From: an uncultured Erysipelotrichaceae bacterium
GTDB taxonomy: Bacteria; Bacillota_I; Bacilli_A; Erysipelotrichales; Erysipelotrichaceae
DNA: 61,692 nucleotides
NCBI GenBank assembly: GCA_945877405.1
Contig: CAMCSA010000008.1
Location: 1 to 61,692, forward strand
Direction: 5' to 3'
Shown here: positions 43,102 through 60,552 of the stretch, in pieces
Position numbering within the stretch: the stretch's first letter is position 1
How the letters are laid out: every line of letters starts with the position of its first letter
Program-made: the position numbers and the translations under genes
The notes under the pieces: generated by a model
What the model was told of the DNA's origin: nothing
The model's input: the letters and a program-made list of their open reading frames with translations, nothing else
Databases searched by the model: none

Positions 43102-44085
43102 ATGTACGGTTTTGGTGAAATGATTTCTCGTCTGAAAAAGAATCCTAAGACGATTGTCCTGACTGATGGTGAGGATCCAAGAATCCTGGAAGCATCTTCA
43201 AGACTTCTGGCAAGTAACTTTCTGTATCCGATTCTGATCGGTAATCCGGAAAGAGTCATGGCAGCGGCAGAAGAGTCCGGTTTTAACATCCGCGGTGCTC
43301 TGATTTTTGATCCTGAAAGCTATGATGCGATGGATGATATGGTTAATGCTTTCTGTGAACTTCGTAAAAGCAAGGGTGTTACACCTGAAGAAGCAAGAAA
43401 GATACTCAAGGCTCCAAACTATTTTGGAACAATGCTTGTCAAGATGGGCATTGCGGACTGCCTGCTTGGTGGGGCAACATATTCTACAGCAGACACAGTA
43501 CGTCCTGCTTTACAGCTGATCAAGACAAAGCCAGGCAACTCTGTTGTATCTTCCTGCTTCATTCTTGTCAGACCGTCCGCAACTGGTGATAATGAGGTAC
43601 TGGCAATGGGTGACTGTGCCATCAATATCAATCCTACGGAAGATCAGCTTTCTGAAATCTGTGGTGAAGTGGCTGAATGCGCAAAGATCTTCGGTGTTGA
43701 TCCAAAGGTTGCATTCCTGTCCTATTCCACATTAGGTTCTGGTAAGGGTGAAGATGTTACAAAGATGAGAAATGCTGCCGCAAAGGCAAAGGCCAAGTTC
43801 CCTGGTCTGCCGATTGAAGGTGAAATCCAGTTTGACGCTGCGGTTTCTCCAAGAGTTGCACGCACAAAGTGCCCTGAATCTGCAGTAGCAGGTCATGCCA
43901 ATACATTCATCTTCCCGGATATCAATTCCGGTAACATCGGTTACAAGATTGCACAAAGACTCGGTAACTTTGAAGCATATGGTCCGATCCTGTTAGGACT
44001 GAATGCACCGATCAACGATCTGTCCCGTGGATGTAATGCGATTGAAGTTTACTCCATGGCAATCATTACAGCTGCACTGGCATAA
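43102..44085 (+). CDS. pta: Phosphate acetyltransferase
   Basis: Interconverts acetyl-CoA and acetyl phosphate in fermentation. The 327-residue protein is the short, single-domain Pta: TIVLTDGEDPRILEASSRLL, MLVKMGIADCLLGGATYSTADTVRPALQ, SYSTLGSGKGEDVTKMR, EGEIQFDAAVSPRVA and the C-terminal FPDINSGNIGYKIAQRLGNFEAYGPILLGLNAPINDLSRG. GGAGG precedes the ATG. Acetate kinase is not adjacent. Monocistronic. Confidence 0.95.
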   Translation: MYGFGEMISRLKKNPKTIVLTDGEDPRILEASSRLLASNFLYPILIGNPERVMAAAEESGFNIRGALIFDPESYDAMDDMVNAFCELRKSKGVTPEEARKILKAPNYFGTMLVKMGIADCLLGGATYSTADTVRPALQLIKTKPGNSVVSSCFILVRPSATGDNEVLAMGDCAININPTEDQLSEICGEVAECAKIFGVDPKVAFLSYSTLGSGKGEDVTKMRNAAAKAKAKFPGLPIEGEIQFDAAVSPRVARTKCPESAVAGHANTFIFPDINSGNIGYKIAQRLGNFEAYGPILLGLNAPINDLSRGCNAIEVYSMAIITAALA

Positions 44086-45580: not shown

Positions 45581-45670
45581 CTGCTGTCTGTTTCTATGTG
45601 CATTAGCCTGATAATCCAAATTTTTCTGATTGATACAGAATCAATACTGCAGATACTGTATGATACTCAT

Positions 45671-46981
45671 ATGAAGATAACAGCCAGTTATTCCGTTGCA
45701 TTCAAAGGCGGATATGATGCCATCAGAAGAACAGTAACAATCTACAATGAATCAGTCAGATATCTGACTGATGTTGTTCAGCAGAATTGGGATGAAATCG
45801 AAAAGATTGACCAGTCAAAACTGCGTATGAACTATGTGGAAAGACTTGTTCATAACACAAAAGACAATCATGCTCTGTATGATTTTGATATTGCATTCCC
45901 AAAGTATCCTACGTATTTCAGAAGAAGTGCGATTATGACAGCTATCGGTATTGTGTCTGCCTATATGAGTGCGATTGACAATTGGGTGGCTGGTGAATGC
46001 AAAGGTGCTATGCCAAAGATAGATACAGCTGTTCATCAGATGCCATGCTTTTATCATGGTAACTGCTTCAGAAACATGACAGACGATACAGCTGAAATCA
46101 AGGTGTTCCGCAACAATGACTGGGTATGGCAGACAATCCGTCTGAACCATTCTGATCTGAAGGATCTGAAGAAAAAAGCACCTGTTGATAAATGGTCTGC
46201 TCCATCGCTTGTCAAAAAGCATAGTGGCTATGAACTCAGATTCACTGTCAAAAAGAAGGTTGTTTTATCTTCAAAACCAGTATTTGAGCAGAAAGTGTGT
46301 GCTGTTGATCTTGGCATTACAACAGATGCAACGTGCAGTGTTATTGATGTACATGGAACTGTCCTGTCACGGAAGTTCATCAACTGTGGCAGAGAAAAAG
46401 ACTCTGTATACAATGCACTGCATCGTGTATCTGACTTCCAGAAAGAACATGGTTCTCATGATTCTGGAAGACTGTGGAACATTGCCAAAAGAAGAAACCT
46501 CAATCTTGCTCATATGATTGCACATCGGATTGTTGATTATGCAATCGCCAATGACTGTGATGTGATCGTCATGGAACACCTGGATACAAAAGGCAAAAAA
46601 CGTGGATCTAAGCGTCAGAAACTGACGATGTGGAAACATGCCGATATCCAGAATACAGTCGAATCACTTGCTCATCAGTATGGAATTAGAGTATCCCGTG
46701 TATGTGCATGGAATACAAGCAGACTTGCATATGATGGAAGTGGTATGGTTAACCGTGGCAGGTATGTATCTGAAACAACACCATATGATATGTGTAAATT
46801 TCAAAGTGGAAAGATGTATAACTGTGATCTTTCTGCAAGCTATAACATCGGTGCACGGTACTTCATCCGTGAACTGATTAAAGAAGTACCCGGTATTATG
46901 ACAGAAGCCTCTGGTATCGGGAGTGGAACTACGAGGACTTTGTCGACATTGTGGCATATTAACTCTGCTATGTCGATCTAG
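45671..46981 (+). CDS. tnpB: RNA-guided endonuclease TnpB (IS605 OrfB)
   Basis: A 436-residue TnpB, the RuvC-type nuclease ancestral to Cas12, guided by an RNA made from the element's right end. The RuvC triad is complete: D213 (AVDLGITTDATC), E302 (VIVMEHLDTKGKK) and D386 (NCDLSASYNIGARYF). The usual four-cysteine zinc ribbon is altered: CAWNTSRLAYDGSG, a long spacer, then MCKFQSGKMYNC, leaving three cysteines. This form recurs in a firmicute TnpB subgroup as I recall it. The ATG at 45671 matches the family start; no clear Shine-Dalgarno is seen. Confidence 0.9.
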   Translation: MKITASYSVAFKGGYDAIRRTVTIYNESVRYLTDVVQQNWDEIEKIDQSKLRMNYVERLVHNTKDNHALYDFDIAFPKYPTYFRRSAIMTAIGIVSAYMSAIDNWVAGECKGAMPKIDTAVHQMPCFYHGNCFRNMTDDTAEIKVFRNNDWVWQTIRLNHSDLKDLKKKAPVDKWSAPSLVKKHSGYELRFTVKKKVVLSSKPVFEQKVCAVDLGITTDATCSVIDVHGTVLSRKFINCGREKDSVYNALHRVSDFQKEHGSHDSGRLWNIAKRRNLNLAHMIAHRIVDYAIANDCDVIVMEHLDTKGKKRGSKRQKLTMWKHADIQNTVESLAHQYGIRVSRVCAWNTSRLAYDGSGMVNRGRYVSETTPYDMCKFQSGKMYNCDLSASYNIGARYFIRELIKEVPGIMTEASGIGSGTTRTLSTLWHINSAMSI

Positions 46982-47436: not shown

Positions 47437-48288
47437 ATGAGTGATAAGACAAAGATGACAGGTAAGGTATTATCCGCAATGGTTGGAGTGTTAGTGGCAG
47501 TACTTGCTATTACGGCTTCTACTTTTGCGTGGTATTTCTATAATATTAACGGACATACGACAAAAGTCAGAATGGCTGCAGGGTCTGGCACATCCATCCA
47601 GATTGCCAACGCGATTGATGGGCCATATGCATCCTCTGTACAGATGGATGATTTCAATGATTATCTCAATCCTGTCAGTACGGATCAGATTCGAAATGGA
47701 TTTCAGAAAGTAACCGGGTTTGAAGATGATGGAGAAAACATCTGGGCAAGATATTTCTCTACAGCTGACCATGTGGACTACTGTATCCGTACACTGTATC
47801 TGAAAGCCAATGCATCTGAAGATGTGGATGTATATGTATCTGATATTACGGGTGTCAACAGAGATGACAGTAATCCTTTATCATCTGCCATCCGTGTCGG
47901 ATTTGCTGTATATGATGGGGATGAAATCGGAAATGAATTCATATTCGCCATTGATGATCAGGAAAACCCTCAGGGACACTTCAATACATATACCGATCTG
48001 GATTATGAAAACAATACGGATATCGTTCTGGATTCCACAAAACAGGATGGATCAACCGTATATTTCAAGCCATATGATGCAGGCAGTTATGTCAGCTATG
48101 ATGAGGATCTTGGAACAGTCACACTCAAACAGAATTCTCAGGTCATCTGTACATTAAAAGGGGATGGCACCCCTGTCAGAATTGATGTGTATTTCTGGCT
48201 GGAAGGTTGTGATCCTGACTGTTATGGAAATCTGGCTGGACAGTCGTTAGACAGAATGGCGTTAAGCTTTGCGGGGTACATCAAATGA
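47437..48288 (+). CDS. SipW-signal-peptide surface protein, TasA/camelysin-like (1)
   Basis: A 283-residue exported protein, first of the operon. The signal peptide has the SipW-type form: basic start, hydrophobic core, then AITASTFAWYFYN around the cleavage site (about residues 24-36). The mature part is predicted beta-rich and contains two motifs shared by its paralogues: YLNPVSTDQI near residue 70, and VYFWLEGCDPDC near the C-terminus. The GGAG Shine-Dalgarno is well placed. It overlaps the next gene by four bases. Assembly into fibres is inferred from the TasA/CalY precedent. Confidence 0.82.
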   Translation: MSDKTKMTGKVLSAMVGVLVAVLAITASTFAWYFYNINGHTTKVRMAAGSGTSIQIANAIDGPYASSVQMDDFNDYLNPVSTDQIRNGFQKVTGFEDDGENIWARYFSTADHVDYCIRTLYLKANASEDVDVYVSDITGVNRDDSNPLSSAIRVGFAVYDGDEIGNEFIFAIDDQENPQGHFNTYTDLDYENNTDIVLDSTKQDGSTVYFKPYDAGSYVSYDEDLGTVTLKQNSQVICTLKGDGTPVRIDVYFWLEGCDPDCYGNLAGQSLDRMALSFAGYIK

Positions 48289-49079
48289 ACAGGGACAGAC
48301 TGATGCTTGAGTTTTATCTGACATTGATTGGTATTGTATTTGTTCTGCTTGTTCTGAGTGGCTCTACCTTTGCATGGTTTACCCAGACTGCATTTACCAA
48401 TACGGAATTATACAGTGCCAGTGTAGATGGTGGTACATCATCCATTCTGATCAGCTTACAGCAGGATGGAGAATTTGATAAGGAATGCGAATTGATTCCG
48501 GACAATCATCCGGATGCACTGTATCCGGTCTCTACTGCAGATCTGAATACATTTTATCAGGGCAGTGCAGTCAAAGCAGATGGCATCACATATCGATATA
48601 CAGCTGCAGATACGCAAAACAGAATCATCCAGGGAAGGGTGTATCTGAAAAGCATCAATGGCAGCAATGATGTGTATTTTGATGATGAAAAGTTCAGGGT
48701 TTCCATGGTGGATGGAATGGATGCCGGCTTACGGCTTGGACTGATCATCAATGAACAGACATATATCTTCAATCTGGATACGGGTAATGAAGAAGGCAGA
48801 GTGACAATTGAGAGGGAAGAAGACTCAGTTGTATCCGATATTGATGAGCAGGGGAATCCTGTCTATACAGCTGATCCATGCCTGGATGTGGCACTTTATC
48901 AGGCAGATGGAGAAAATGCAGGTACACATGCTCTTGCCAGGATTGAAGAAGATGAGATTGTACAGGTAGACTACTATGTCTATCTGGAAGGATGCGATCG
49001 TAACTGCATCAATCAGATTCAGAATCAGGATCTGACGATTACATTAGGTTTTCAGGGGGTAGAAGTCAATGCAGAATAA
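48285..49079 (+). CDS. SipW-signal-peptide surface protein, TasA/camelysin-like (2)
   Basis: A 264-residue paralogue. The signal segment LTLIGIVFVLLVLSGSTFAWFTQ has the SipW-type AWF around the cleavage site. The mature domain has LYPVSTADLNTFY and, near the end, YVYLEGCDRNC followed by a beta strand (LTITLGFQGV). Overall identity to its neighbours is low, but the order of motifs is constant, suggesting distinct subunits of one structure rather than recent copies. It overlaps the next gene by 11 bases. Confidence 0.82.
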   Translation: MNRDRLMLEFYLTLIGIVFVLLVLSGSTFAWFTQTAFTNTELYSASVDGGTSSILISLQQDGEFDKECELIPDNHPDALYPVSTADLNTFYQGSAVKADGITYRYTAADTQNRIIQGRVYLKSINGSNDVYFDDEKFRVSMVDGMDAGLRLGLIINEQTYIFNLDTGNEEGRVTIEREEDSVVSDIDEQGNPVYTADPCLDVALYQADGENAGTHALARIEEDEIVQVDYYVYLEGCDRNCINQIQNQDLTITLGFQGVEVNAE

Positions 49080-49902
49080 AAAATATGTTTTATCCCTTGG
49101 TTATATGGCAGTTATGATGGTTGTGATTGTCAGTGTGGCCCTTGTTTCGACCTATGCCTGGTTTACATCCAATCAGAACGTATCTACCACAACAGTCAAC
49201 GCAACAACAGGAACGGATGAAATCCGTCTGCTGTTAGGTGCAACGCAGAATTCTCTGAGTGAAGATCCATGTGTGATCACACAGGATAACATGAATGAGG
49301 GAATTGTGTTATATCCTGTATCTAGTGCGGATCTTGTTACCTTTACCGCAATGGAAGGTACGCAAACCAACACGCGATATAGAAAGATCACAGATCAGGA
49401 TCAGTATTATTACCATGGCGTATTCTATCTGAAGGCAGAAGGCAATGAAGAACGGGAAGTAACCCTGTACCTGGATCAAAGGGATAACAGAATTGTTGAA
49501 GCAGTGGGAGAAACGGAAGTGCTCAATGCTTCCAGATTCGGTTTATTAATCAATGGTCAGGGAAGCATCATCACCATCAGTGATGAAGTCAATGCCGATG
49601 AGGATCGGATTGAAAATACAGTTGTCAATGGGGAAGTGGTAACAGGAGAAAAAGTCATTACACTGGATGAAAACGGGAATCCGGAAGCAGTTGCTTTAAC
49701 ACCATTGTATTTACATGATGCATGTATCCGCAATGATGGGGATACTGCCATCTATCCGGATTACATGTATACCATTACAACAAATACGGTCTATACATGT
49801 GATGTGTATTTCTATCTGGAAGGTACGGATCAGGACTGTTCTGATGCGGTATCCTTTGAGCAGCTGGATCTTTCGATTTCACTGCTGGGGGTAGTCGGAT
49901 GA
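49069..49902 (+). CDS. SipW-signal-peptide surface protein, TasA/camelysin-like (3)
   Basis: A 277-residue paralogue with signal MAVMMVVIVSVALVSTYAWFTSN. The mature part contains LYPVSSADLVTF and the C-terminal VYFYLEGTDQDCSDAV. An acidic insert (residues about 170-215, DEVNADEDRIEN and GEKVITLDENGNPEAV) has no counterpart in paralogue 4. Starts inside gene 2 and overlaps gene 4 by four bases, so all four are translated as a coupled set. Confidence 0.82.
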   Translation: MQNKKYVLSLGYMAVMMVVIVSVALVSTYAWFTSNQNVSTTTVNATTGTDEIRLLLGATQNSLSEDPCVITQDNMNEGIVLYPVSSADLVTFTAMEGTQTNTRYRKITDQDQYYYHGVFYLKAEGNEEREVTLYLDQRDNRIVEAVGETEVLNASRFGLLINGQGSIITISDEVNADEDRIENTVVNGEVVTGEKVITLDENGNPEAVALTPLYLHDACIRNDGDTAIYPDYMYTITTNTVYTCDVYFYLEGTDQDCSDAVSFEQLDLSISLLGVVG

Positions 49903-50666
49903 AAGAAGAATACAGAAATACAGTCAGAAGAACAGTACTTCTGTTGTTGATTGCTTTTGTCGGGATTGTCGGTATTTCCTTTGCATGGTTTACACTGGCA
50001 GATTTCACAAAGGTTTCCACAATGAAACTGGATATTACAAACGGTTCCAACCTGCGGTTTGATGTTGTGGCACATGATGATATCGAAGACTACTATAAGA
50101 CATTGAGTGTGGAAAGAATCCGTGATTATGTGCTTGGAGATCATGGATATGATCTGACAACAACACCATTACAGCCCGTTACTACTGCAGATTGTGTGAC
50201 ATATACATTCGAAGATGGGGAAGTGGCTGGAGTCAATACAGGTGTCTATGTCCAGTTTCCATTACATTTTATGGCAGCTAAGGACATGTATGTACATCTG
50301 ACAACTGCAAATTCACCTGGTAATACCGATGGTACGCAGATCACATCAGATGATGCAAGGCTGACAAATGCATTGCGGATCTGCTTTACGGTAAACGGAA
50401 ACAACTATATTTATTCTCCTGGTATGGGGGAAGGAGCAACGCAGACGGCTATTGGCAAAGTGTTTGGCCTCAATGATGCGGATACCATGGTCTATTCCGA
50501 CAACAACAGTCTGTTTTTCATTCCTGCCTTTACCGATCAGCAGGTCGATGTAAAAATCTGGCTGGAAGGTACGGATGAAGGGTGTGTGGATGATATAAAA
50601 AAGCTGAATTTTACAATGAAATTCCGATTTGCCGGTACAGATGAGGATAATGTATTGGTTGAATAG
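49899..50666 (+). CDS. SipW-signal-peptide surface protein, TasA/camelysin-like (4)
   Basis: A 255-residue paralogue with signal RRTVLLLLIAFVGIVGISFAWFT. The mature part has LQPVTTADCVTYTF and the C-terminal VKIWLEGTDEGCVDDI. A 63-base gap separates it from the first SipW peptidase gene, the longest gap within the operon. Confidence 0.82.
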   Translation: MKEEYRNTVRRTVLLLLIAFVGIVGISFAWFTLADFTKVSTMKLDITNGSNLRFDVVAHDDIEDYYKTLSVERIRDYVLGDHGYDLTTTPLQPVTTADCVTYTFEDGEVAGVNTGVYVQFPLHFMAAKDMYVHLTTANSPGNTDGTQITSDDARLTNALRICFTVNGNNYIYSPGMGEGATQTAIGKVFGLNDADTMVYSDNNSLFFIPAFTDQQVDVKIWLEGTDEGCVDDIKKLNFTMKFRFAGTDEDNVLVE

Positions 50667-50729
50667 CATCTATATGCTAAAATTACACAATAGATAGAAG
50701 TATATTTCGGGAAGAATCAGGGGGAAATC

Positions 50730-51428
50730 ATGGAAAAACTCAAAAAAATCGGACTTACTGTCCTCAGTATATGCTTATGGGGTGTCATTCTGATCGCCGC
50801 TTTATTTGCATTTACAACATTGGCAACAAAGGATACGAATTCAGTTGCTTCAATTGCAGGATTTACACCATTAACAGTTGCAACAGAGTCAATGGAACCA
50901 ACGTTCGGTACCAGTGATCTGATCATCATTCAAAAGTGTGATCCTGCTGATCTGAAGGAAGGGGATATCATCACCTTCCATACCATCATCAACAACGAAT
51001 ACGCTCTGAATACCCATAGAATCGTGGATATCGAAGAAAACAACGGATATCGTTCCTATCGTACAAAGGGTGACAACAACCAGATTGAAGATACACATGT
51101 CATCGCTGATGGCGATATTGTTGGCAAGTATGTACTGAAGCTTGCTGGAGTAGGTGCATTGATGACATTCCTTTCTTCCTCAACAGGATTCCTGGTTGTC
51201 ATCATCCTGCCATTGCTGATCTTCTTTGTCATGCAGGTATATCATCTGATCATGGTTGTCATCAAGCTCAAAAAGGCAACCGCAGAAGAAATGGCAAGTG
51301 AAAATGATGCATCCCTGGATGAAGCATTAAAGGCAAAGCAGGAAGCGGAAGCAGCTTTAGCTGAAGCAAGAAGACTGAAAGAAGAAGCTGAAGCTTTAAA
51401 GAAGGCTGCAGAAGAAAACAAGGAGTGA
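50730..51428 (+). CDS. sipW: SipW-type signal peptidase I (1), with coiled-coil tail
   Basis: A 232-residue signal peptidase of the ER/archaeal type, which uses a serine-histidine pair in place of the serine-lysine pair of ordinary bacterial enzymes. The serine is in VATESMEPTF, the histidine in LNTHRIVDIEE and the acidic residue in TKGDNNQIED. One N-terminal and two adjacent C-terminal membrane helices flank the catalytic domain. The last 50 residues form an Ala/Glu/Lys coiled coil (KAKQEAEAALAEARRLKEEAEA), unusual for the family. GGGGGA precedes the ATG. Its likely substrates are the SipW-signal proteins around it. Confidence 0.9.
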   Translation: MEKLKKIGLTVLSICLWGVILIAALFAFTTLATKDTNSVASIAGFTPLTVATESMEPTFGTSDLIIIQKCDPADLKEGDIITFHTIINNEYALNTHRIVDIEENNGYRSYRTKGDNNQIEDTHVIADGDIVGKYVLKLAGVGALMTFLSSSTGFLVVIILPLLIFFVMQVYHLIMVVIKLKKATAEEMASENDASLDEALKAKQEAEAALAEARRLKEEAEALKKAAEENKE

Positions 51429-51432
51429 AACT

Positions 51433-53136
51433 GTGAGTGAATTTCTGAATCTGGCATTTGAGCTGATATCACAGATTATCTATTATCTGAGTGAATGGGT
51501 AGTAGGTTTTTTCACCGGATTTCTGAGAATCTTTGTGACGGGTGTTCCGGTATATATTACGATCTTTGCATCCTACTTTCCTTCTTTAAATCTGTTTTCC
51601 AAAGTACTTGCAGTACTGCTGGCGTTAATTCTGATTGCCATTCCGGTATTACTGCTTGTTATCATCATTCGAAAACTCATTCTGTATATCCGCCTCAAGG
51701 ATACAAAGGAAGATAATGTCGAGCTGTATAAGGAAATCGGAAGACTGAACAGACAGGTATTGAACCTGATGGATGAAAAGAACAAGATTCTTGCCTTAAA
51801 GGTCAATAATACAGGTCTGAACCGTGTATCCTATGTAGGTTCCAGTGGACTCATGGATGATGTACCTGCTTCTGCGATTGCTGGTGGGAATGTAGCTGGC
51901 GCAGCAGAAGGAGGCAGTGTTGAAGGTGGTGTCATTGCAGGAAATGCAAATGTCGGCTTCAACATGAATGAAGATTCCATGGCAAATCTGGCTGGTGGAA
52001 TGGCTGCAGCACAGGTAGCTGCAAAAAGACAGAGCGAGGAAGAAGAAAAGAAGCAGGCAGTCAGATTTCCGAAACTCGATCTTGTTGATCGTAAATACAT
52101 GCATTACGTTGAACCGAAGTTTGACGATGAAATCACACTGGAACAGTTCTGCGAAGGTTATCGTGCCTTTGCCTGTTCGCAGCTGCATTTATATTACACA
52201 ATGGAAATCGTACGTCGATTTGTTGCTGGTATGGCATCCAGCCATATTATGATTCTGGAAGGTATTTCCGGTACAGGTAAAACATCTTTACCATATTCCT
52301 TCTCAAGATATCTCGATAACCCGGCTACCATTGTTTCCGTTCAGCCAAACTTCCGTGATCGTACGGAGCTGCTTGGTTATTTCAACGAATTCTCAAAGCG
52401 TTTTAATGAAACCGAATTCTTAAGAGCTTTATATGAAGCTAACTATCGGGAAGAGCCATGTATCATCGTATTAGACGAAATGAACCTGGCCCGTATTGAA
52501 TACTACTTTGCGGAAATGCTTTCCATTCTGGAAATGCCATCTGTAGATGAGTGGATTATTGACCTTGTTCCAACAGCATGGGAAGGGGATCCGATCAAGC
52601 TTGTCGATGGTAAGATCCATATCAATCCGAATATCTGGTTTGTCGGTACAGCCAACAACGATGACTCCACATTTACGATTACCGATAAGGTATACGATAG
52701 AGCCATGCCGATTGAGCTGAACGAAAGAGCTGCTGCATTTGAAATTGCAGATCAGCCTGCTGTTCATGTCACTGCAGCCCATCTGCATCAGATGTTCAAG
52801 GAAGCACAGGAAAAGTATCCATTGACCGATGCCATGCAGGAAAAGCTGAACAAGCTTGACTCCTACCTGCAGACAAGATTCAAGCTTGCGATCGGTAACC
52901 GTATCATCAAGCAGATGAATGACTTCGTACCTGTTTATGTAGCGACAGGTGGTACGGAACTGGATGCGATTGACTATATCATTTCACGTAAGGTACTCAA
53001 GAAGTTTGAATCTTTGAACCTTTCCTTTGTACGTGATGAAATCAAGGGACTGATTGCCTATATCGAAAAGATTTTCGGTAAGAGCGGTATGAAGGATTCC
53101 AAAGATTATCTGACAAGAATTCAGAATCTGTATTAA
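51433..53136 (+). CDS. Membrane-anchored McrB-like AAA+ ATPase
   Basis: A 567-residue protein. The N-terminus has two to three membrane helices (about residues 12-85), then a short coiled coil (VELYKEIGRLNRQVLNLMDEKNKILAL) and a Gly/Ala-rich linker. The C-terminal AAA+ domain is of the McrB/MoxR kind: Walker A GISGTGKTSL (277-286), Walker B IIVLDEMNLARIEYYFAEM (Asp348-Glu349), sensor 1 GTANNDDSTFTI and arginine finger YDRAMPIEL. GTG start, with AAGGAG overlapping the sipW stop. No restriction endonuclease partner is present; the next gene encodes a DUF2357 protein. Its role in a surface-fibre operon is unexplained. Confidence 0.85.
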   Translation: MSEFLNLAFELISQIIYYLSEWVVGFFTGFLRIFVTGVPVYITIFASYFPSLNLFSKVLAVLLALILIAIPVLLLVIIIRKLILYIRLKDTKEDNVELYKEIGRLNRQVLNLMDEKNKILALKVNNTGLNRVSYVGSSGLMDDVPASAIAGGNVAGAAEGGSVEGGVIAGNANVGFNMNEDSMANLAGGMAAAQVAAKRQSEEEEKKQAVRFPKLDLVDRKYMHYVEPKFDDEITLEQFCEGYRAFACSQLHLYYTMEIVRRFVAGMASSHIMILEGISGTGKTSLPYSFSRYLDNPATIVSVQPNFRDRTELLGYFNEFSKRFNETEFLRALYEANYREEPCIIVLDEMNLARIEYYFAEMLSILEMPSVDEWIIDLVPTAWEGDPIKLVDGKIHINPNIWFVGTANNDDSTFTITDKVYDRAMPIELNERAAAFEIADQPAVHVTAAHLHQMFKEAQEKYPLTDAMQEKLNKLDSYLQTRFKLAIGNRIIKQMNDFVPVYVATGGTELDAIDYIISRKVLKKFESLNLSFVRDEIKGLIAYIEKIFGKSGMKDSKDYLTRIQNLY

Positions 53137-53142
53137 TACTAT

Positions 53143-55158
53143 ATGGCCAATACACTTAATGATCTATATCTGAAATATACCAACAAGGTTGTTTCAAGCC
53201 TGGAAAAAGACAGATACTTTCAGTATATGTTTGAAATGCTGTCGGCGGGGGACAACCGTTTTCAGCATTCTTCTCAGGTCATGCATAAGCAGATCGATGA
53301 AAAATGGCTGAGTATGATTGAGGATTCACTCGATTCCATCAATAACATCATTGAAAAACCAAGACGATTCATCACAACAAAAGAAGAAGTCGTTCCGGTA
53401 TCGTTAGCCAAAAAGATCACAGCAGACTCTGTACGTCATCTCTCACAGAATACGCAGTTTATTGCGGCTAGTGAAGATGGAGATGTACATCCGACTAGAA
53501 TTCTCAATGTGACTGTTGATGAAACCTATGATCTTTATGAAAACAGGTTCATCTATCATCTGATTCAGCGTCTTGTCACATTCATTGATAAGCGTACGGA
53601 TGTACTGTTCTGGTCAACTGGTGATGAAAAGCGCAATGTCATGACCATGGAATCCAAGATTGAGGATGGTTATGAAGAAATCGAGTATAAACTCGAAATG
53701 AAGATCAAAAACAGACAGTCATTTGCGGAAAATGAATCCGATAATATGGCTCTGTTTATGAGAATTGACCGCGTCAGAAGAAGAGTCATGGCTTTAAAGA
53801 CTTCATCTTTCTGTTCCATCATGGCAGGATGTGCAAAGGTCAGAAGCCCGATTCAGCGTACAAACCTCATTATGAAAGATCCGGACTACCGTAATTGTTA
53901 TAAGTTATGGCAGTTTATTGAATCCTATGATGAAGTCGGTTATTCCATTGATATCCGGAATACGAACATTGAATATGATGAAGATTATCTGACAAACATG
54001 TACATCAATCTCATTACAAACTATGTCGTATTCAAATCACTTCTGGAGATGGATAAACGGGATGTGCTGAGTGAAACATTAAAGAAACACAAAGTACTCA
54101 AACCGAAGTTTGTCAAAGTCATCAATGAAGAAGAAGTCAAAGCAGAAGACTTTGATCTTGAGGATGTGGAAGTCCGTCAGGTCATTGTAGAAGAAGTCAC
54201 AAAGGCCCAACTGGAATTACAGAAGAAGTTTGATGAGCTGAATGCAAAATTACAGGATGTAGCTGCACAGCGTGATGAAATGGGATCCCGGCTTGAAACA
54301 CTTGGGTATCAGTTGGAAACACAGCTGGAAGATAGCGAAAGAAAACTGAAAGAGCAGAAAGCAAAGCTTGTGGAAGCTCATAAGCTTAAGGAAGAAAAGC
54401 TGAATGTGCTAAGGCAGGAAGCACTCGATCAGGTAAATGATCTGATGGCTAAGCTTACACAGGCACAGGAAAGTGCTGCAGCAGTTCATCAGGAAAACGA
54501 AAATCTGGCAAGAATCAATGCAACACTGACTGCTGAAAAGCAGGCTGATACAGATAGAAGGCAGAAACTGGAAGAAAAGCTTGCGGAATTGCAGGAAACT
54601 TCACAGCAATTACAGCAGAACAATGCAGCTCTTTCCACTTTGGCAAAACAAAGTCAGGAAGAAATGCAGCAGGCACTTGCTGATAAGGATGCAGCTGTCA
54701 AGCAATGCCAGGAAGCAGTCGATCAGGCAAAAACAGATCGGATGTTACGTGAGGCTGCAGAGTTGAACTTACGTGCACAGATCACAGCAAGGCAGGACGA
54801 AGAAACAAAGAATCTCAAAGCAGAACAGCTCAATGCACAGCTGCAGGAAACCATCAATGCCAAAGATGATGAGATGACTGCATTACGCAGGAAGATCGAA
54901 CAGCTGACAAGTGAAAAATATGCATTGAGTGAAAAACTGGATCGGGAAAAGAAACAGCGAAAAGAAAGTGATGCGAAGGTTCGAGAACTCAGTGCCAGTG
55001 TGAAAAAGAGTGATGCTTTGAATACAAAGCTCAATGATGAACTTGAAGTGGAAAGAAAGAAGAGACTGAAAGCGGAAAAGAAGGCAGAAGGTACTGTTCT
55101 TTCCAGATACATCATCGCAAAACTCAATGGATCAGCCAATGAAGAAAACAATTCTTAA
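53143..55158 (+). CDS. DUF2357-like protein with long coiled coil
   Basis: A 671-residue cytoplasmic protein. The first 320 residues resemble DUF2357 proteins, which act beside McrB-type ATPases: TRILNVTVDETYDLYENRFIYHLIQRL is the telling stretch, and KDPDYRNCYKLWQFIESYD-like sequence follows. Residues about 350-655 form one long Gln/Glu/Lys coiled coil. The C-terminal nuclease domain found in many DUF2357 or McrC-like proteins is absent. There is little Shine-Dalgarno before the ATG at 53143, so translation may be coupled to the ATPase six bases upstream. Confidence 0.75.
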   Translation: MANTLNDLYLKYTNKVVSSLEKDRYFQYMFEMLSAGDNRFQHSSQVMHKQIDEKWLSMIEDSLDSINNIIEKPRRFITTKEEVVPVSLAKKITADSVRHLSQNTQFIAASEDGDVHPTRILNVTVDETYDLYENRFIYHLIQRLVTFIDKRTDVLFWSTGDEKRNVMTMESKIEDGYEEIEYKLEMKIKNRQSFAENESDNMALFMRIDRVRRRVMALKTSSFCSIMAGCAKVRSPIQRTNLIMKDPDYRNCYKLWQFIESYDEVGYSIDIRNTNIEYDEDYLTNMYINLITNYVVFKSLLEMDKRDVLSETLKKHKVLKPKFVKVINEEEVKAEDFDLEDVEVRQVIVEEVTKAQLELQKKFDELNAKLQDVAAQRDEMGSRLETLGYQLETQLEDSERKLKEQKAKLVEAHKLKEEKLNVLRQEALDQVNDLMAKLTQAQESAAAVHQENENLARINATLTAEKQADTDRRQKLEEKLAELQETSQQLQQNNAALSTLAKQSQEEMQQALADKDAAVKQCQEAVDQAKTDRMLREAAELNLRAQITARQDEETKNLKAEQLNAQLQETINAKDDEMTALRRKIEQLTSEKYALSEKLDREKKQRKESDAKVRELSASVKKSDALNTKLNDELEVERKKRLKAEKKAEGTVLSRYIIAKLNGSANEENNS

Positions 55159-55699
55159 GATCATCAATGCCATCTCTGTGGTAATTATCTGTGTGGCATT
55201 ATATGCCATGATCAAGGTCGTATTTACTCCAGGTGGTATGGCACCGGAATTTCTCGGGTATTCTGTATTCAGAATCTCATCCGGATCCATGGAGCCGACC
55301 ATTAAAGTGGATTCCCTTGTTGTTGTAAAACAGATTGAACCACAGGATGTACAGGTTGATGATGTGATTACATTCTATTCCGATGATCCTGTATTACAGG
55401 GATTTCCAAATACCCATCGTGTCAAGGAAATCATTGATGAGGATGGGCATCTGTATTATGTGACACAGGGGGATGCCAATCCGATTGTGGATGCTTACAA
55501 GGCAGATTCCAGTAAGTTAATCGGTGTAGTGATCTATCAATCGCCACTCCTTGGTAAGGCAATGCGATTATTATCCAATCCACTGATCTTTATTCCTGTG
55601 ATTGCCTTACCGTTAGTGTATATTCTGATTTCATCCATAGTCGATACGATCAGAATCGCAGGAAAGATATCCGAAGAAGAGGACAACAGTGATGTTTGA
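55139..55699 (+). CDS. sipW: SipW-type signal peptidase I (2)
   Basis: A 186-residue ER-type signal peptidase: catalytic serine in SSGSMEPTIKVDS, histidine in PNTHRVKEIIDEDG and acidic residue in TQGDANPIVD. One N-terminal helix and two C-terminal helices, with no coiled-coil tail, unlike peptidase 1. The ATG at 55139 lies inside the coiled-coil gene by 20 bases; an ATG four codons earlier is possible. Two SipW enzymes in one operon suggest different substrates, which is inference. Confidence 0.88.
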   Translation: MKKTILKIINAISVVIICVALYAMIKVVFTPGGMAPEFLGYSVFRISSGSMEPTIKVDSLVVVKQIEPQDVQVDDVITFYSDDPVLQGFPNTHRVKEIIDEDGHLYYVTQGDANPIVDAYKADSSKLIGVVIYQSPLLGKAMRLLSNPLIFIPVIALPLVYILISSIVDTIRIAGKISEEEDNSDV

Positions 55700-57617
55700 T
55701 TTCAGATTTGATATTGCTGCACTGGTGATCAGTCTCATCAGTTATGCAATCATTACAATGAAGAGAAACTATCTGACACGTGAATCACGTGTCTTTGTTG
55801 CCTGCATTGTACTCAACATGATTTCAGCCGTATGCAATATCATATCGACAATCGCTGTCGCCTATAACTCAGCTGCACTTGTATCCTTTGCTTTTTTGGC
55901 CAAGTTTATTCATTTTATCCTGATCTTTCTGATGACGGCAGGCTTCTATACAGCCTCCTTGATCCGGGTGAAGGAAAAAGGGTTAGGAAAGATCGATCAG
56001 ATCATACTGATCGCATATCTTGGGATCAATGTCGTATTGTTATGTACTTCATTTTTTACAAAGTTCTATTTCTACTTTGACGGGGAGTATCGGTTACGGA
56101 CAAGTTTCCTGTACTATCTTGCTGTGTTACTGCATATAGTCATGATGGTATATACCGGTATTCTGATCGCAAAAAAGGAAAAGGAAGAAGATAGTGCAAC
56201 AGCAGTATATGTTGTTGTTGCAATGGCAATCTATGTCACTTTGACTCTGGTCAATGCCTTTGTCAAAGGAAGCAATGTATATCACTTTGCAGTAGCAGTG
56301 CTGTTTCTGTGTGTGCATGTCATCCTCAACAATCCGGAAGATTATGTGGCTGCCTATTACAGCTGTTTCAATGATGTGGCATATAAGGATTCTCTGATTT
56401 ATCATCAGAACCGGAATAAGCAGTTACATTCCATCGGCATCAGCTGTGGAGAAATGGATTTTCTCAAATCCACATATTCAGACCTTGAAATCATGACTGC
56501 TTTAAAGCCGTTTACCGAATTTGCAAGGGCAAGATTTGGTGCCTATAACTTCTATGTCATCGGCACAAGCCAGTTTGTTGTACAGGTCAAAGGAAACAAT
56601 TCCCTGATTGAATCCACAATGTCTGAAATCAGGAATTACTTCATGGAACCCATCAGCATTGGTGGTGTGGAATTTGTCATTTCACCACTATTTGCGGTTG
56701 TGGAAGATCGGGAAAAGTTTGACTCAGTGGATTCCTACTTTGAAGTATTGAGTTACTGTATGAACCATACGGAACTGTTTGCCGCAAAGCAGGTATTACG
56801 TGTTACAAGTCAGCATATCACATTTGTCAACCAGGAGCAGGAAATGGTACTGGCAGTCACAAGAGCAATCAAAAATGATGGTGTGCTTATATATTACCAG
56901 CCGATTTATTCCGCTGAGACTGGTGGTTATCCGACCAGTGAAGCACTGGTACGAATCAAAGATGAAAAGCTTGGATTCATTTCTCCTGCTGACTTCATTC
57001 CGATTCTGGAAAGAAACGGAATGATTGTTGAATTAGGAGAACTGATTCTGAAACGTGTTTGTGAAGACTATCAGAAATATGAATTTCCTAAGCTTGGGAT
57101 TGAACGGGTGGAAGTCAATCTTTCCGGAAGGCAGTTAGTCGTTCCGGGGATTTATAAAAAGCTGTTAGGTATTATCAAAGAAAACCAGGTGCCAAAGGAT
57201 GCAATTCTGTTTGAAATTACTGAATCCTATACAAAGGAGTCTGCCCAGGCTTATATCCTGGAAAACATCAAAGGAATAACAGATAACGGCATCAAGCTTG
57301 CCTTAGATGACTTTGGTACAGGTTATTCCACAATGATCAATCTGATCCGCTTACCATTTGAAATCATCAAGATTGATAAATCACTATTGGATAATGCGAT
57401 GGCAGATCTGAAATCCATGGTATTATTGAAAAATAATGTAAACATGCTCAAGGAACTCAAGAAAAAGATTGTTGTTGAAGGTGTTGAAACAAGTGAAGAA
57501 GCAAAGATGCTGAAGAACTTAGGTGTTCACTACTTCCAGGGTTATCTTTACAGTAAGCCTGTCAGTGTAGAAGAATATGTCAGTTTCCTCAAACCAAAGG
57601 AAAGGAGTGCGAAGTAA
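55692..57617 (+). CDS. Membrane EAL-domain c-di-GMP phosphodiesterase, degenerate GGDEF
   Basis: A 641-residue protein. About seven membrane helices (residues 5-215) precede a degenerate GGDEF domain, where the signature reads GTSQF (FYVIGTSQFVVQVKG), so cyclase activity is not expected. The EAL domain (about 390-635) looks active: E417 of SEALVRI, Asn in VNLSGRQL, Glu in FEITES, DDFGTGYST, IKIDKSLLD, VVEGVETSEEA and Gln in YFQGYLYSKP are all present. It would hydrolyse cyclic-di-GMP. I prefer the ATG at 55692 (AGAGGA upstream) over GTG at 55689. It shares one base with the PilZ gene. Confidence 0.93.
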   Translation: MFDFRFDIAALVISLISYAIITMKRNYLTRESRVFVACIVLNMISAVCNIISTIAVAYNSAALVSFAFLAKFIHFILIFLMTAGFYTASLIRVKEKGLGKIDQIILIAYLGINVVLLCTSFFTKFYFYFDGEYRLRTSFLYYLAVLLHIVMMVYTGILIAKKEKEEDSATAVYVVVAMAIYVTLTLVNAFVKGSNVYHFAVAVLFLCVHVILNNPEDYVAAYYSCFNDVAYKDSLIYHQNRNKQLHSIGISCGEMDFLKSTYSDLEIMTALKPFTEFARARFGAYNFYVIGTSQFVVQVKGNNSLIESTMSEIRNYFMEPISIGGVEFVISPLFAVVEDREKFDSVDSYFEVLSYCMNHTELFAAKQVLRVTSQHITFVNQEQEMVLAVTRAIKNDGVLIYYQPIYSAETGGYPTSEALVRIKDEKLGFISPADFIPILERNGMIVELGELILKRVCEDYQKYEFPKLGIERVEVNLSGRQLVVPGIYKKLLGIIKENQVPKDAILFEITESYTKESAQAYILENIKGITDNGIKLALDDFGTGYSTMINLIRLPFEIIKIDKSLLDNAMADLKSMVLLKNNVNMLKELKKKIVVEGVETSEEAKMLKNLGVHYFQGYLYSKPVSVEEYVSFLKPKERSAK

Positions 57618-58291
57618 TGGCAGAACTGAAAATCAAATCCGGTACAAAAATGAAAATGGCCTTTAACAGTGATACACCGGAATTCAATTTTGTAACTACA
57701 TTCAATAAGGCTCTGGATGAATCTGCCTTCCTTGTATCCATTCCTTTAAAAGATGGCAAGGCGTTAACCGTTGCGGATGATCAGAAGCTGTTATTCAAAT
57801 ATGGGGCTGATCAGGACGAGGCAGTCATTGCAGGGTATGTCGATGATATTGTTAAACAGGGTATCAAACGATACTGGAAAATTCGCAGAGTTACGGAAAT
57901 GCGTAACTTTGTACAACGTAGAGATGAACGTATTGATCTAACCTTACCAATCAAATACCTTGATCCGATCTGGAAACCAAACAGTGATGGTGTGATTGAA
58001 AAAGAAGAAGGCACAACACTGAATATTTCTGCCGGTGGTCTTGCGATCAACATCAACTATCACTTTGATGTTGGAGAAGCCATTGAAATTGATCTTCCAA
58101 ATGTTGGCTCAGCAATTGATGGCATTGGCCCTAAGGCAATTACATCCATTATCTGCTGGACAAGAGAAGCTCCGAAGGGTTCGCTTTACAGGCATGTGGC
58201 AGGTGTGCAGTTCCGCTTTGGTGATGATGGAAGCCAAAGAGAAACAATGCAGAACTATGTTGCCTTTGCGAAAAAGAAATACAAGTTATGA
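57617..58291 (+). CDS. PilZ domain c-di-GMP receptor
   Basis: A 224-residue protein of the YcgR-like layout: an N-terminal beta-barrel flagellar-brake-like domain (1-95) and a PilZ domain (97-220). The ligand motif RxxxR appears in QRRDERIDLTLP (R101, R102, R105). The second motif reads NISAGG (136-141), with Asn for the usual Asp of DxSxxG. It should bind cyclic-di-GMP. Its place between the EAL gene and a membrane protein with a long cytosolic tail suggests that it passes the signal to the export machine. It overlaps both neighbours. Confidence 0.88.
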   Translation: MAELKIKSGTKMKMAFNSDTPEFNFVTTFNKALDESAFLVSIPLKDGKALTVADDQKLLFKYGADQDEAVIAGYVDDIVKQGIKRYWKIRRVTEMRNFVQRRDERIDLTLPIKYLDPIWKPNSDGVIEKEEGTTLNISAGGLAININYHFDVGEAIEIDLPNVGSAIDGIGPKAITSIICWTREAPKGSLYRHVAGVQFRFGDDGSQRETMQNYVAFAKKKYKL

Positions 58292-59442
58292 AAAAACTGT
58301 TTACGAAAAAAGAAAAACAGCAGGTACAGGATATTCCGGATCATCTGGAACAGGAAGTCAGTGAGAAACCTGAAAAGAAAAAGAAGTTCAGTTTCAAGCT
58401 GAAAGAAAAAGAGAAAAAAGAAAAGATCCGGTTTAAAAAGGCAATTGTACGATCAGAAGAGATCTCAAAGGCAGGCGCTAAAGAAGATGAACTGGATGAT
58501 AAGATTGTCTCCTCCTATGTCCCATACCGTAGAGCAAAGAGACTTGGTCGATCTTTATTACGACTGGATAAACTTTCCATCTGGTTTTTATCTTTGACAT
58601 TAATTGTAACCATCATCTTCATCTTCTCCTTCATGCAGGAAAAGATGGGCAACTTTACAATCAACCTGAACCGACTGGAACTGTATCGTAAGGGCATTAC
58701 CATTTCTGCTGACTCGGTATTTACAAATCCGACCGCAAGATTGACTGCGAATGCGATCTCAGATGCCACAAACATCTCAGCAAATGACCTGCCAGAGAAT
58801 ATCAATGATATTGATGGTGACCATAATGGGAAAAACTATGTGGCATATACATACTATATCCGTAATGCAGGAAAAGAAGATGTGCAGTATTCTGCAGTGG
58901 TAAACCTGGATTCCTATTCCAAGAATGCAGATGAAGCAGCAAGAGTCATTGTATACCACAATGATGAAAAGACGGTGTATGCCAAAAAGGCTGCCGATGG
59001 TAATCCGGAACCTGGTACAACACCATTTGTATCAGCAAACATCGTATGTGAATATTACAATGATGAATTCCTTGTAGGTAACGTCGATAAATATACGATT
59101 GTCATCTTCTTAGAAGGGGATGACCCTGAGTGTGTGGATGCGATTATTGGTGGATCACTGGAATTCTCCATGAATATCTCAGCAGATGATGAATCTGAAA
59201 CATCGTTATTTGTTAAGTGGGTACAGGATATCATTGATACAATTACTGATAATGATTCCATTGGTACAGCAGGTACGGATGCACCTGACTTCTATATCCA
59301 GAACAAGGATATCACCTATGAAAACAGAAGAAACGGTCCAAATAACATCTATGAGGATAACAGAACTCCTACAGATAACTCCTCACAGATCAAGGAAAGC
59401 TTCGGTCAGTTAGGGGATAAAGTAAAGGAAGACGTAGAATAA
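58288..59442 (+). CDS. Type II membrane protein with TasA-like outer domain
   Basis: A 384-residue protein. Residues 1-about 98 are a very basic cytosolic tail (EKKEKIRFKKAIVR and many KKKK-like runs). One membrane helix (about 98-118, LSIWFLSLTLIVTIIFIFSF) follows. The outer domain carries the family motif YTIVIFLEGDDPECVDAI but no SipW cleavage site, so it should stay anchored. It could nucleate or hold the fibre formed by the cleaved paralogues and receive the PilZ signal through its tail; both are inference. Last gene of the operon. Confidence 0.8.
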   Translation: MKKLFTKKEKQQVQDIPDHLEQEVSEKPEKKKKFSFKLKEKEKKEKIRFKKAIVRSEEISKAGAKEDELDDKIVSSYVPYRRAKRLGRSLLRLDKLSIWFLSLTLIVTIIFIFSFMQEKMGNFTINLNRLELYRKGITISADSVFTNPTARLTANAISDATNISANDLPENINDIDGDHNGKNYVAYTYYIRNAGKEDVQYSAVVNLDSYSKNADEAARVIVYHNDEKTVYAKKAADGNPEPGTTPFVSANIVCEYYNDEFLVGNVDKYTIVIFLEGDDPECVDAIIGGSLEFSMNISADDESETSLFVKWVQDIIDTITDNDSIGTAGTDAPDFYIQNKDITYENRRNGPNNIYEDNRTPTDNSSQIKESFGQLGDKVKEDVE

Positions 59443-59754
59443 ATACACATATGTAACCATATAGATGTGTCTATGGAAGTTACCTATGAAAAAATGCACA
59501 GGAAATACTTAAAATACTAGCTAAACCTATTGTAAAAACAGGTAAATTCATATAAGATTTCTTTGTAGAAAAGCAAAACTAGCGCAAGCTAGTGACGCAA
59601 AGCTAGAGGGGCTCTACGAGTCAGCCAGTTGCTAAAGGTTCTATAGTTGCCTTTGGTATTTATTTTATTGGCAGGCTTGGATAGAAAGATTGGATCAGAT
59701 CTTTCTACCTGTGAGTCGTTGATCATTTCTTAATATGACTAAGGGGGAAAAACA
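59443..59754 (+). promoter_or_regulatory. Control region before the camelysin-like pair
   Basis: This 312-base gap holds a candidate promoter (TTGTAA 59530-59535, TAAGAT 59553-59558, 17-base spacing), the cyclic-di-GMP riboswitch at 59572-59633, a hairpin AAAGG/CCTTT (59635-59655) followed by a T-rich run, and a 9-bp perfect stem TAGAAAGAT/ATCTTTCTA (59682-59707). It ends in the Shine-Dalgarno AAGGGGG. No obvious terminator for the preceding operon is seen. Confidence 0.6.
59572..59633 (+). promoter_or_regulatory. Cyclic-di-GMP class I riboswitch (GEMM-I)
   Basis: The sequence matches the GEMM-I consensus closely. P1 is AGCAA/TTGCT. P2 is ACTAGC-GCAA-GCTAGT with a GNRA tetraloop. GTGACGCAAAGCTAGAGGG is the conserved linker and 5' side of P3, and GTCAGCCAGTTGCT supplies the 3' side. 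The conserved GACGCAAAGC and CAGCCAG blocks are present. It lies 122 bases before a SipW-signal surface protein gene. Whether binding switches expression on or off cannot be told from the platform that follows. Confidence 0.93.
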
Positions 59755-60552
59755 ATGTCAGTAAAAACATTAAGAAAACAATTGTTTGCGGCAATCGCCA
59801 TGGTACTGGTTGCCGCTATTGCACTGGGCAGCTCCACCTACGCATGGTTTGCAAACAACAACACTGTTAAAGCAGACGGGATGAAAATCAATGCGAAAGC
59901 AGAAGGCACCATGCTTGTAATTTCCAACACTGTAGAAGGATTAAACGATAAAAAAACATCTTACACTTTTGATCCGGTTGTAAAAGGAGAAAACTTATAT
60001 CCTGTTCATCCTATTTATACAAGTGTATCAGGAAATGATGTTACTGCTTGGAATCATGCGTATTCCGACAAATTTGATACAGCAATAAGCAACAGTACAG
60101 AAACCGCCGTAAGCACAGATGATTTGAATGCGGGAAAATATTATGTAACTACAGACCTGTATATTGGTTTGGATAATACTCACAATGCAGCTTCTGTTGG
60201 AGCCATTACTGTTACAGGCGTTACTTTAACAAGTTCAGGAAATACCTTGTTAAATTCTGCTCGTGTGCTGATGGTTGATAAAGACGGCAAAGTTATTGGC
60301 TGTTTTGGCAACGGAACTTGTTTAAGTGAAAAAGGAACTGATTATGCAGTGGATACTCCAGCAACAGCCGATACCATGACTGAGCTTTCACCAGCCAATA
60401 CAGGAACTGTTATTGGCGGGTTAACTGCAGGTCAAAATGTAAAAGTAACATTATTTATTTATTTTGATGGTCGTGATAGTTCTTGCACAAGCCAGAATTT
60501 CAAAGCTGATGAAGTAACTTGCTCTTTAGAATTTACTGCTGCAGATGCTTAA
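59755..60552 (+). CDS. Camelysin/TasA-like SipW-signal surface protein (5)
   Basis: A 265-residue exported protein under the cyclic-di-GMP riboswitch. Its signal MSVKTLRKQLFAAIAMVLVA to SSTYAWFANNN is the clearest SipW-type signal in the locus. The mature domain has YPVHPIYTS and the C-terminal IYFDGRDSSC. It is rich in Thr, Ser, Asn and Gly, without the acidic inserts of the operon paralogues. A strong riboswitch leader and AAGGGGG Shine-Dalgarno suggest it is the major, abundant subunit; that is inference. The following hairpin at 60609 separates it from the next gene. Confidence 0.87.
   Translation: MSVKTLRKQLFAAIAMVLVAAIALGSSTYAWFANNNTVKADGMKINAKAEGTMLVISNTVEGLNDKKTSYTFDPVVKGENLYPVHPIYTSVSGNDVTAWNHAYSDKFDTAISNSTETAVSTDDLNAGKYYVTTDLYIGLDNTHNAASVGAITVTGVTLTSSGNTLLNSARVLMVDKDGKVIGCFGNGTCLSEKGTDYAVDTPATADTMTELSPANTGTVIGGLTAGQNVKVTLFIYFDGRDSSCTSQNFKADEVTCSLEFTAADA

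Follow-up and report, generated by a model that had tools for sequence, protein, structure and literature searches.

A CoCoPALM-like McrBC derivative beside signal peptidases and cyclic di-GMP genes in an uncultured Erysipelotrichaceae bacterium

In the McrBC system, as described in the available portions of PMC7680126 and PMC6624300, a finger of McrC enters the McrB ring, puts a basic residue near the signature Asn and Asp and stimulates hydrolysis, and a rotary cycle has been proposed. A further class, CoCoPALM, is named and then deferred without description in the available main text of a 2024 eLife paper (PMC11090510); a passage of that source lists its parts as an NxD McrB-type nucleoside triphosphatase (NTPase) fused to a membrane and coiled-coil (FtsB-like) segment, a coiled-coil McrC homologue and a signal peptidase family protein. 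Literature searches on the CoCoPALM class, and on DUF2357 or McrB/McrBC together with SipW, signal peptidases or pilus assembly, listed, for this class, only this paper and its preprint. Here we analyse an adjacent AAA+ NTPase and DUF2357 gene pair at 51433-55158 of contig CAMCSA010000008.1 from an uncultured Erysipelotrichaceae bacterium; "the window" denotes the whole stretch analysed, 61,692 nucleotides long. Judged by the features in the published description, the pair fits the CoCoPALM class. We favour, with a probability of roughly 0.55, the reading that it is a CoCoPALM-type McrBC derivative in which a nucleoside triphosphate-driven ring is coupled to signal peptidases and drives or gates the processing of surface subunits under the control of cyclic di-GMP (c-di-GMP, cyclic dimeric guanosine monophosphate).

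The McrB-type NTPase and its McrC-type partner

The open reading frames (ORFs) of the AAA protein and its partner both lie on the plus strand, 6 bases apart, and carry the following features (aa, amino acids; AF2, AlphaFold2; pLDDT, predicted local distance difference test).

51433..53136, + strand: McrB-type AAA+ NTPase, 567 aa, GTG start, predicted membrane-anchored (Pfam, alignment, model, hydropathy)
51574..51699, + strand: hydrophobic segment of the AAA protein, residues 48-89, core 61-79 (hydropathy)
52261..52287, + strand: Walker A GISGTGKTS, residues 277-285 (sequence and alignment)
52474..52485, + strand: Walker B DEMN, residues 348-351 (sequence and alignment)
52654..52665, + strand: NxD signature NNDD, residues 408-411 (alignment, hhalign; residue roles from the available part of PMC7680126)
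52699..52701, + strand: R423, presumed trans arginine finger (invariant in 51/51; role by homology)
53143..55158, + strand: McrC-type partner, 671 aa (Pfam, model, structure comparison)
53143..54048, + strand: folded DUF2357/McrC-finger head of the partner, residues 1-302 (AF2 pLDDT ~90; McrC Z 8.3-8.9 over residues 47-267)
54172..55128, + strand: predicted coiled coil of the partner, residues 344-662, at the position of the McrC nuclease (AF2 model)

The AAA protein matches the Pfam families AAA_5 and AAA, both above their cut-offs. Walker A, Walker B, N408, D410, D411 and R423 are invariant in all 51 aligned AAA sequences, and among relatives Walker A is kept in 150/154 and NxDDS in 148/154; from its homology R423 is presumed to act as the trans arginine finger. 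When the 51-sequence profile was compared with PDB sequences, McrB chains were the only significant matches (E 6e-6 to 1e-5), and hhalign paired the protein with Escherichia coli McrB at 96% probability, N408 aligning with the sensor Asn of MNTADRS. Structural matches of the model included MoxR-type 2r44 (Z 14.6), RavA, MCM and McrB (Z 12.3 and 11.3). The strongest hydrophobic 19-residue window is residues 61-79 (Kyte-Doolittle 3.6), with a weaker segment from about residue 22, and the model places a long N-terminal helix (54-126) and a low-confidence linker before the AAA core. Of 138 AAA proteins whose Walker A could be read, 137 have an N-terminal hydrophobic segment. The N-terminus thus consists of a membrane and coiled-coil helix followed by the linker, and the modified-DNA-binding N-terminal domain of McrB was not found there. 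On these sequence features it is close to certain that the AAA protein is an McrB-type AAA+ NTPase that keeps its motifs intact and has a membrane anchor.

Pfam DUF2357 (PF09823) covers residues 23-185 of the partner (E 2e-12, 47.3 bits, cut-off 23.3), and no other Pfam family, nucleases included, matched it at E<=1. In the AF2 model residues 1-302 are well folded, residues 344-662 are almost all helix, parts of the coil being of low confidence, and there is no strand after residue 275. The top four matches of the partner in VIA-align were McrC chains (Z 8.3-8.9 over 133-147 residues, root-mean-square deviation 4.6-5.7), and the next, unrelated, match scored 7.4. A Z near 8 is modest alone, but together with DUF2357 and a McrB-type neighbour it makes the McrC kinship of the partner convincing. 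A hidden nuclease in the partner was also considered and found no support in the Pfam scans or the AF2 model. The fold library behind the structure comparison returned none either, but such a library may overlook one, and we give this no weight. Across partner proteins, the 25 of 64 Pfam families listed comprised DUF2357, signal peptidase and mostly coiled-coil families. The shortest partner relatives, at 362-378 aa, have little room past DUF2357, and the longest reach 1089 aa. On the model, the partner is close to certainly a nuclease-free protein made of a McrC-type DUF2357 head and a coiled coil of ~320 residues. A preliminary description of this DNA had proposed intact Walker and arginine-finger motifs, a membrane tether, a DUF2357 N-terminus joined to a coiled coil, and McrB/McrC kinship; all of these hold, and the check it suggested for a hidden PD-(D/E)XK fold in the partner found none.

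Signal peptidases and c-di-GMP genes around the pair

The pair lies inside a tight gene run, 47437-59442, whose other members are listed here (ER, endoplasmic reticulum).

47437..48288, + strand: surface subunit 1, 283 aa; hydrophobic helix at the N-terminus, 'AWY' motif, WLEGCDPDC at the C-terminus (ORF and family alignment)
48285..49079, + strand: surface subunit 2, 264 aa; TIGR04088 (SipW-dependent-type signal peptide) at 21.3 bits, cut-off 19 (also family alignment)
49069..49902, + strand: surface subunit 3, 277 aa; same family by alignment as subunits 1, 2 and 4
49899..50666, + strand: surface subunit 4, 255 aa; same family by alignment as subunits 1-3
50730..51428, + strand: signal peptidase A, ER/SipW type, 232 aa; TIGR02228 at 103.9 bits (cut-off 51.85); charged C-terminal tail after the last membrane helix
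55127..55699, + strand: signal peptidase B, 190 aa; TIGR02228 at 84.2 bits (cut-off 51.85); gene begins within the last 32 bases of the partner gene, which it overlaps
55689..57617, + strand: membrane EAL-domain protein, 642 aa, predicted to act in c-di-GMP turnover or sensing (Pfam EAL 2e-61)
57617..58291, + strand: PilZ-domain protein, 224 aa, predicted c-di-GMP receptor (Pfam PilZ 3e-10)
58288..59442, + strand: further surface-type protein, 384 aa (own profile only; no Pfam match at E<=0.01)

Related loci were drawn in two sets: 61 consisting of the window and 60 stretches (L036-L095) picked from matches in its taxonomic class for contig room and genus spread, and 79 named loci from L096-L175, which are the best 80 of 590 confirmed matches and hence near relatives. 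An AAA ORF of at least 350 aa was present in 140 of the 141 loci, and L151 was dropped. The loci are not independent, so Fisher values are descriptive only; gene calls are longest ORFs, and spurious ORFs between true neighbours occur. Of the sixteen control pairs, 12 were larger NxD AAA pairs found in the window's class and four came from records of plasmids or phages; some control genomes hold both control-type and anchored pairs.

Both signal peptidases of the window match TIGR02228 above its cut-off; the strict Bacillus SipW model NF046067 gave 97.7 against a cut-off of 190, and the nearest solved structures of signal peptidase A are SEC11A/SEC11C. A signal peptidase gene lies within five same-strand genes of the AAA gene in 123/140 related loci (48/61 and 75/79), AAA rows with a weak peptidase score having been left out of the counts. 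Near the control pairs one was found in 1/16 cases, and that one stands beside a second pair of the anchored kind. A peptidase gene follows the partner gene in 52 cases and overlaps it in 30 of them, and peptidases encoded just before the AAA gene extend at least 40 residues past their last membrane helix in 93/100 cases. Among partners of at least 340 residues, 13/131 carry the peptidase on the same chain, fused after the coiled coil. These fused partners, from Ruminococcus and relatives, are 973-1053 residues long, and a complete signal peptidase forms their C-terminal end (E 1e-46 to 1e-53 with the profile); Pfam S26 agrees on L136, the one fused partner scanned singly. Their close relatives have a partner of ~750 residues and an adjoining separate peptidase gene, so the fusion sits at a gene border.

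Genes for EAL, GGDEF or PilZ proteins, sought with profiles seeded from the window and L050, numbered 84 in 65 of the 140 loci, and 82 of the 84 share the strand of the AAA gene. They peak at a distance of three to four genes from it (48/457 genes, versus 6/264 at a distance of eight or more), and one lies within five same-strand genes in 56/140 loci versus 0/16 controls. A Pfam scan of 140 neighbours, taken at random from 309 eligible unlabelled proteins, found EAL in 13, GGDEF in three and PilZ in two. Six loci (L050, L067, L074, L083, L091 and L092) represent a peptidase-free variant, in which the c-di-GMP gene immediately precedes the AAA gene and DUF2357 follows; in the same six, the c-di-GMP gene is itself preceded by a gene for a surface protein that is at least 2,000 aa long and ends in a membrane helix and charged tail. 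The recurrence of these genes, and the six loci with a c-di-GMP gene directly before the AAA gene, also suit a pure switch, in which nucleotide-dependent assembly on the peptidases would toggle processing under c-di-GMP and do no mechanical work. For a switch alone, however, a conserved hydrolysing active site and long coiled coils, in partners of up to 1089 aa, would be costly; the existence of partners of 362-378 aa softens the argument from the coiled coils, and we regard a pure switch as improbable. Taken together, the peptidase neighbours, the fusions and the c-di-GMP genes tie the pair to surface-protein export more strongly than the preliminary description had proposed.

Surface subunits, distribution and the wider locus

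The four subunits of the window and those of its nearest relatives form one family, with a hydrophobic N-terminus, A-W-[FY] and a C-terminal EG-D-C; R156, E251, G252, D254 and C257 are invariant in 19 aligned subunits. TIGR04088 matches one of the four window subunits, TasA/camelysin (PF12389) matches none of them at E<=1, and among solved structures nothing better than a chance match at E 0.42 was found. We label the proteins 'surface subunits' and not TasA because known models barely match them. The 'matrix' operon of the preliminary description is accordingly weakly supported; among related subunits PF12389 matched 1/120.

A close AAA relative (E<=1e-20) was found in 138/395 genomes sampled from the window's class, although CoCoPALM, named in 2024, has been left unexplained. 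In a phylum sample, whose genomes are partly shared with the class sample, 79/392 genomes match at E<=1e-60; named carriers of an AAA relative include Ruminococcus flavefaciens and Eubacterium ruminantium. By comparison, E. coli McrC, with its nuclease, gave matches as a query at E<=0.001 in 12/296 genomes. No close copy of the AAA gene was found in 35 other genomes of the window's own genus, which gave one weak match (G013); in two other genera, chosen since their centres carry the AAA gene, 4/4 and 7/8 genomes were positive. The pair is thus near-core in some lineages and was probably acquired in that of the window. In a tree all 57 sampled anchored AAA rows fell on one side of a branch, though the branch was weakly supported (80/35; present in 82% of bootstrap trees).

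DUF2357 is encoded immediately after the AAA gene, counting genes of the same strand, for 60/75 and 69/79 AAA ORFs, part of the exceptions being intervening called ORFs. In L068 and L076-L078 a second AAA gene with DUF2357 lies ~15 kb off, and two rings may share one partner there. Some loci without a signal peptidase have the order AAA-AAA-DUF2357-AAA (L064 5626-7011, L071 7463-8806, L073 6555-7736 and L047 13487-17203); their first AAA protein lacks all four catalytic motifs, which suggests a ring mixing dead and live subunits. A further AAA variant of ~600-660 aa occurs in L085-L090, L093 and L095; after it, L085 encodes an ABC ATPase, a membrane protein and a large protein without a match. 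The unverified human faecal phage record L211 (MT835511.1) encodes an NxD AAA protein of 824 aa with a DUF2357 gene and clusters with the controls.

These data bear on an anti-phage role, in which a membrane-bound McrBC relative would sense infection at the surface and act through an unknown effector, its place in the operon being incidental or serving to guard the surface structure. McrBC kin and NxD CoCoNuTs are predicted defence systems in the available part of PMC11090510, the near absence of the module from the 35 congeners is patchy in the manner of defence genes, and the AAA protein scores 4e-41 against PDC-M26A, a candidate model of PADLOC. That match, however, is general to NxD AAA proteins and is stronger in two control pairs (1e-46 and 1e-51), and a defence label based on it was dropped. 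The partner has no nuclease, and none appears among the 25 listed of 102 Pfam families in the 140 sampled neighbours. The near-core presence of the gene in two other genera and the partner-peptidase fusions of relatives further argue against this role, to which we give little weight. The comparative evidence, drawn from sequences, points to the cell surface rather than defence.

Within the window, a Pfam scan of the twelve genes at 47437-60552 found no nuclease or HEPN gene. Just upstream of subunit 1, at 45596-46981, lies a TnpB/IS605 OrfB-like protein (OrfB_IS605 and Cas12f1-like TNB, E 0.001-0.004, below cut-offs); it is the sole nuclease-type candidate nearby and looks like a mobile element. 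A giant surface protein of 1,944 residues at 35657-41491 weakly matches a thioester domain and contains 13 SpaA repeats. Five congeners have the acetyltransferase gene of position 43102 at 72-82% identity, which favours a genuine contig. The congener stretches around it share almost nothing else with the window, and no empty site was seen; a second gene (25578) was too variable to help the comparison. A promoter scan returned fewer sites than shuffled sequence and was not used.

Proposed mechanism and comparison with known systems

The mechanics of the favoured reading, as we infer them, would begin with the AAA protein assembling into a membrane-attached ring on the cytoplasmic side. The DUF2357 head would plug this ring and stimulate hydrolysis, as McrC does for McrB; both halves needed for such stimulation are present in the pair. 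Hydrolysis would move the head, coiled coils would pass the movement to the membrane signal peptidases, and the cleavage, release or hand-over of surface subunits would thereby be driven or gated, with c-di-GMP controlling the system through the EAL and PilZ proteins. In its simplest form, such a mechanism would consist of a ring in the cytoplasm with a plug linked mechanically to a membrane peptidase. The NTPase activity, the complex and the membrane location of the pair are predictions from sequence. A more specific and tentative version, to which we give clearly less credence than to the general reading, is that a restriction-type AAA+ ring serves as a nucleoside triphosphate-driven, c-di-GMP-controlled motor for building the surface of Gram-positive bacteria: the McrC-type plug would turn in the ring, the coiled coil, which some species have on one chain with the peptidase, would transmit force to the peptidase, and subunits would be cleaved and handed over in step with hydrolysis. 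If true, such machines would form a class of powered surface assembly separate from those of type IV pili, sortase pili and chaperone-usher systems.

Several observations weigh against the favoured reading. Gene context is association and not action. No nearby signal peptidase was found in 17/140 loci, and AAA genes without an adjoining DUF2357 gene occur in L049, L068, L076, L077 and L078. The 13 fusions come from close relatives and may represent one event, although even one event ties partner to peptidase physically. Comparison of the partner with McrC by hhalign, using one McrC and an alignment of 14, gave no significant match, so the kinship rests on the model and Pfam DUF2357; as this alignment failed, the activating Lys or Arg of the partner is not named. 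Known models barely detect the related subunits: of 120 scanned, from 293 eligible (145 sampled), TIGR04088 matched two and PF12389 one. SipW-type fibres are reported to form without an AAA/DUF2357 pair, so they do not generally require one, and BsaA made in E. coli polymerised (PMC7395162, available part).

The behaviour of BsaA, as reported in that part of PMC7395162, makes it more likely that any help is needed before assembly, which is compatible with quality control or extraction: the ring would pull back misfolded or uncleaved subunits stuck in the membrane, or feed the signal peptidase, and would not act in assembly. The genes and topology would be the same as in the favoured reading, and the AAA model resembles MoxR/RavA/MCM-type AAA proteins as well as McrB. 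Protein extraction is a common task of membrane-bound AAA+ rings. Among the 25 listed neighbour Pfam families, however, there is no recurring protease or chaperone, and structures of McrBC show the pore of the ring blocked by the stalk of McrC, which would hinder threading (PMC6624300, available part). We consider quality control or extraction unlikely.

Returning to the favoured reading, the window resembles SipW fibre operons in having its own SipW-type signal peptidase beside secreted subunits, and differs from them in its subunits, for which the TasA and camelysin models gave no match at E<=1. The SipW-dependent fibre operon of Bacillus subtilis is tapA-sipW-tasA. In Clostridium perfringens the operon is sipW-bsaABCRSD, and the available part of PMC7395162 names no AAA/DUF2357 pair in it.

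With CoCoNuT systems (types I-III) the pair shares an NxD AAA protein with a coiled coil and a DUF2357 partner. The control pairs (L208-L211 and L241-L252) resemble CoCoNuT systems generally, without assignment to a type; 0/16 have surface subunits and 0/16 have c-di-GMP genes, and three plasmid controls adjoin kinase and phosphatase genes. The window further differs in having no nuclease or HEPN gene alongside its nuclease-less McrC (Pfam, 47437-60552).

The McrBC systems of E. coli and Thermococcus gammatolerans share with the pair the AAA+ core, the Walker motifs, the sensor Asn and Asp and the McrC finger-domain fold. The pair has no PD-(D/E)xK nuclease, DNA-binding specificity domain or restriction context, and it has a membrane anchor and NxD instead of NxxD. 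The change relative to McrBC is thus at the output end, where a coiled coil and signal peptidase replace the nuclease. If the surface reading is true, a DNA-restriction motor has been reused for surface structures in gut and rumen bacteria.

The closest likeness is to CoCoPALM. N408-N409-D410-D411 agrees with the NxD NTPase signature; the hydrophobic core 61-79 and helix 54-126 are fused to the NTPase and are FtsB-like by layout only; the partner has its coiled coil at 344-662, and two TIGR02228 signal peptidases adjoin the pair. The repurposing proposed in the preliminary description therefore stands as regards a McrBC-derived, nuclease-free pair and falls as regards novelty at this locus, the pair fitting a widespread class named in the available part of PMC11090510. 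The available main text of that paper has no mention of c-di-GMP, GGDEF or TasA, and its section 7 and further passages contain no peptidase-partner fusion. As far as our searches go, the peptidase fusion and the c-di-GMP link are additions to CoCoPALM, and both offer direct tests.

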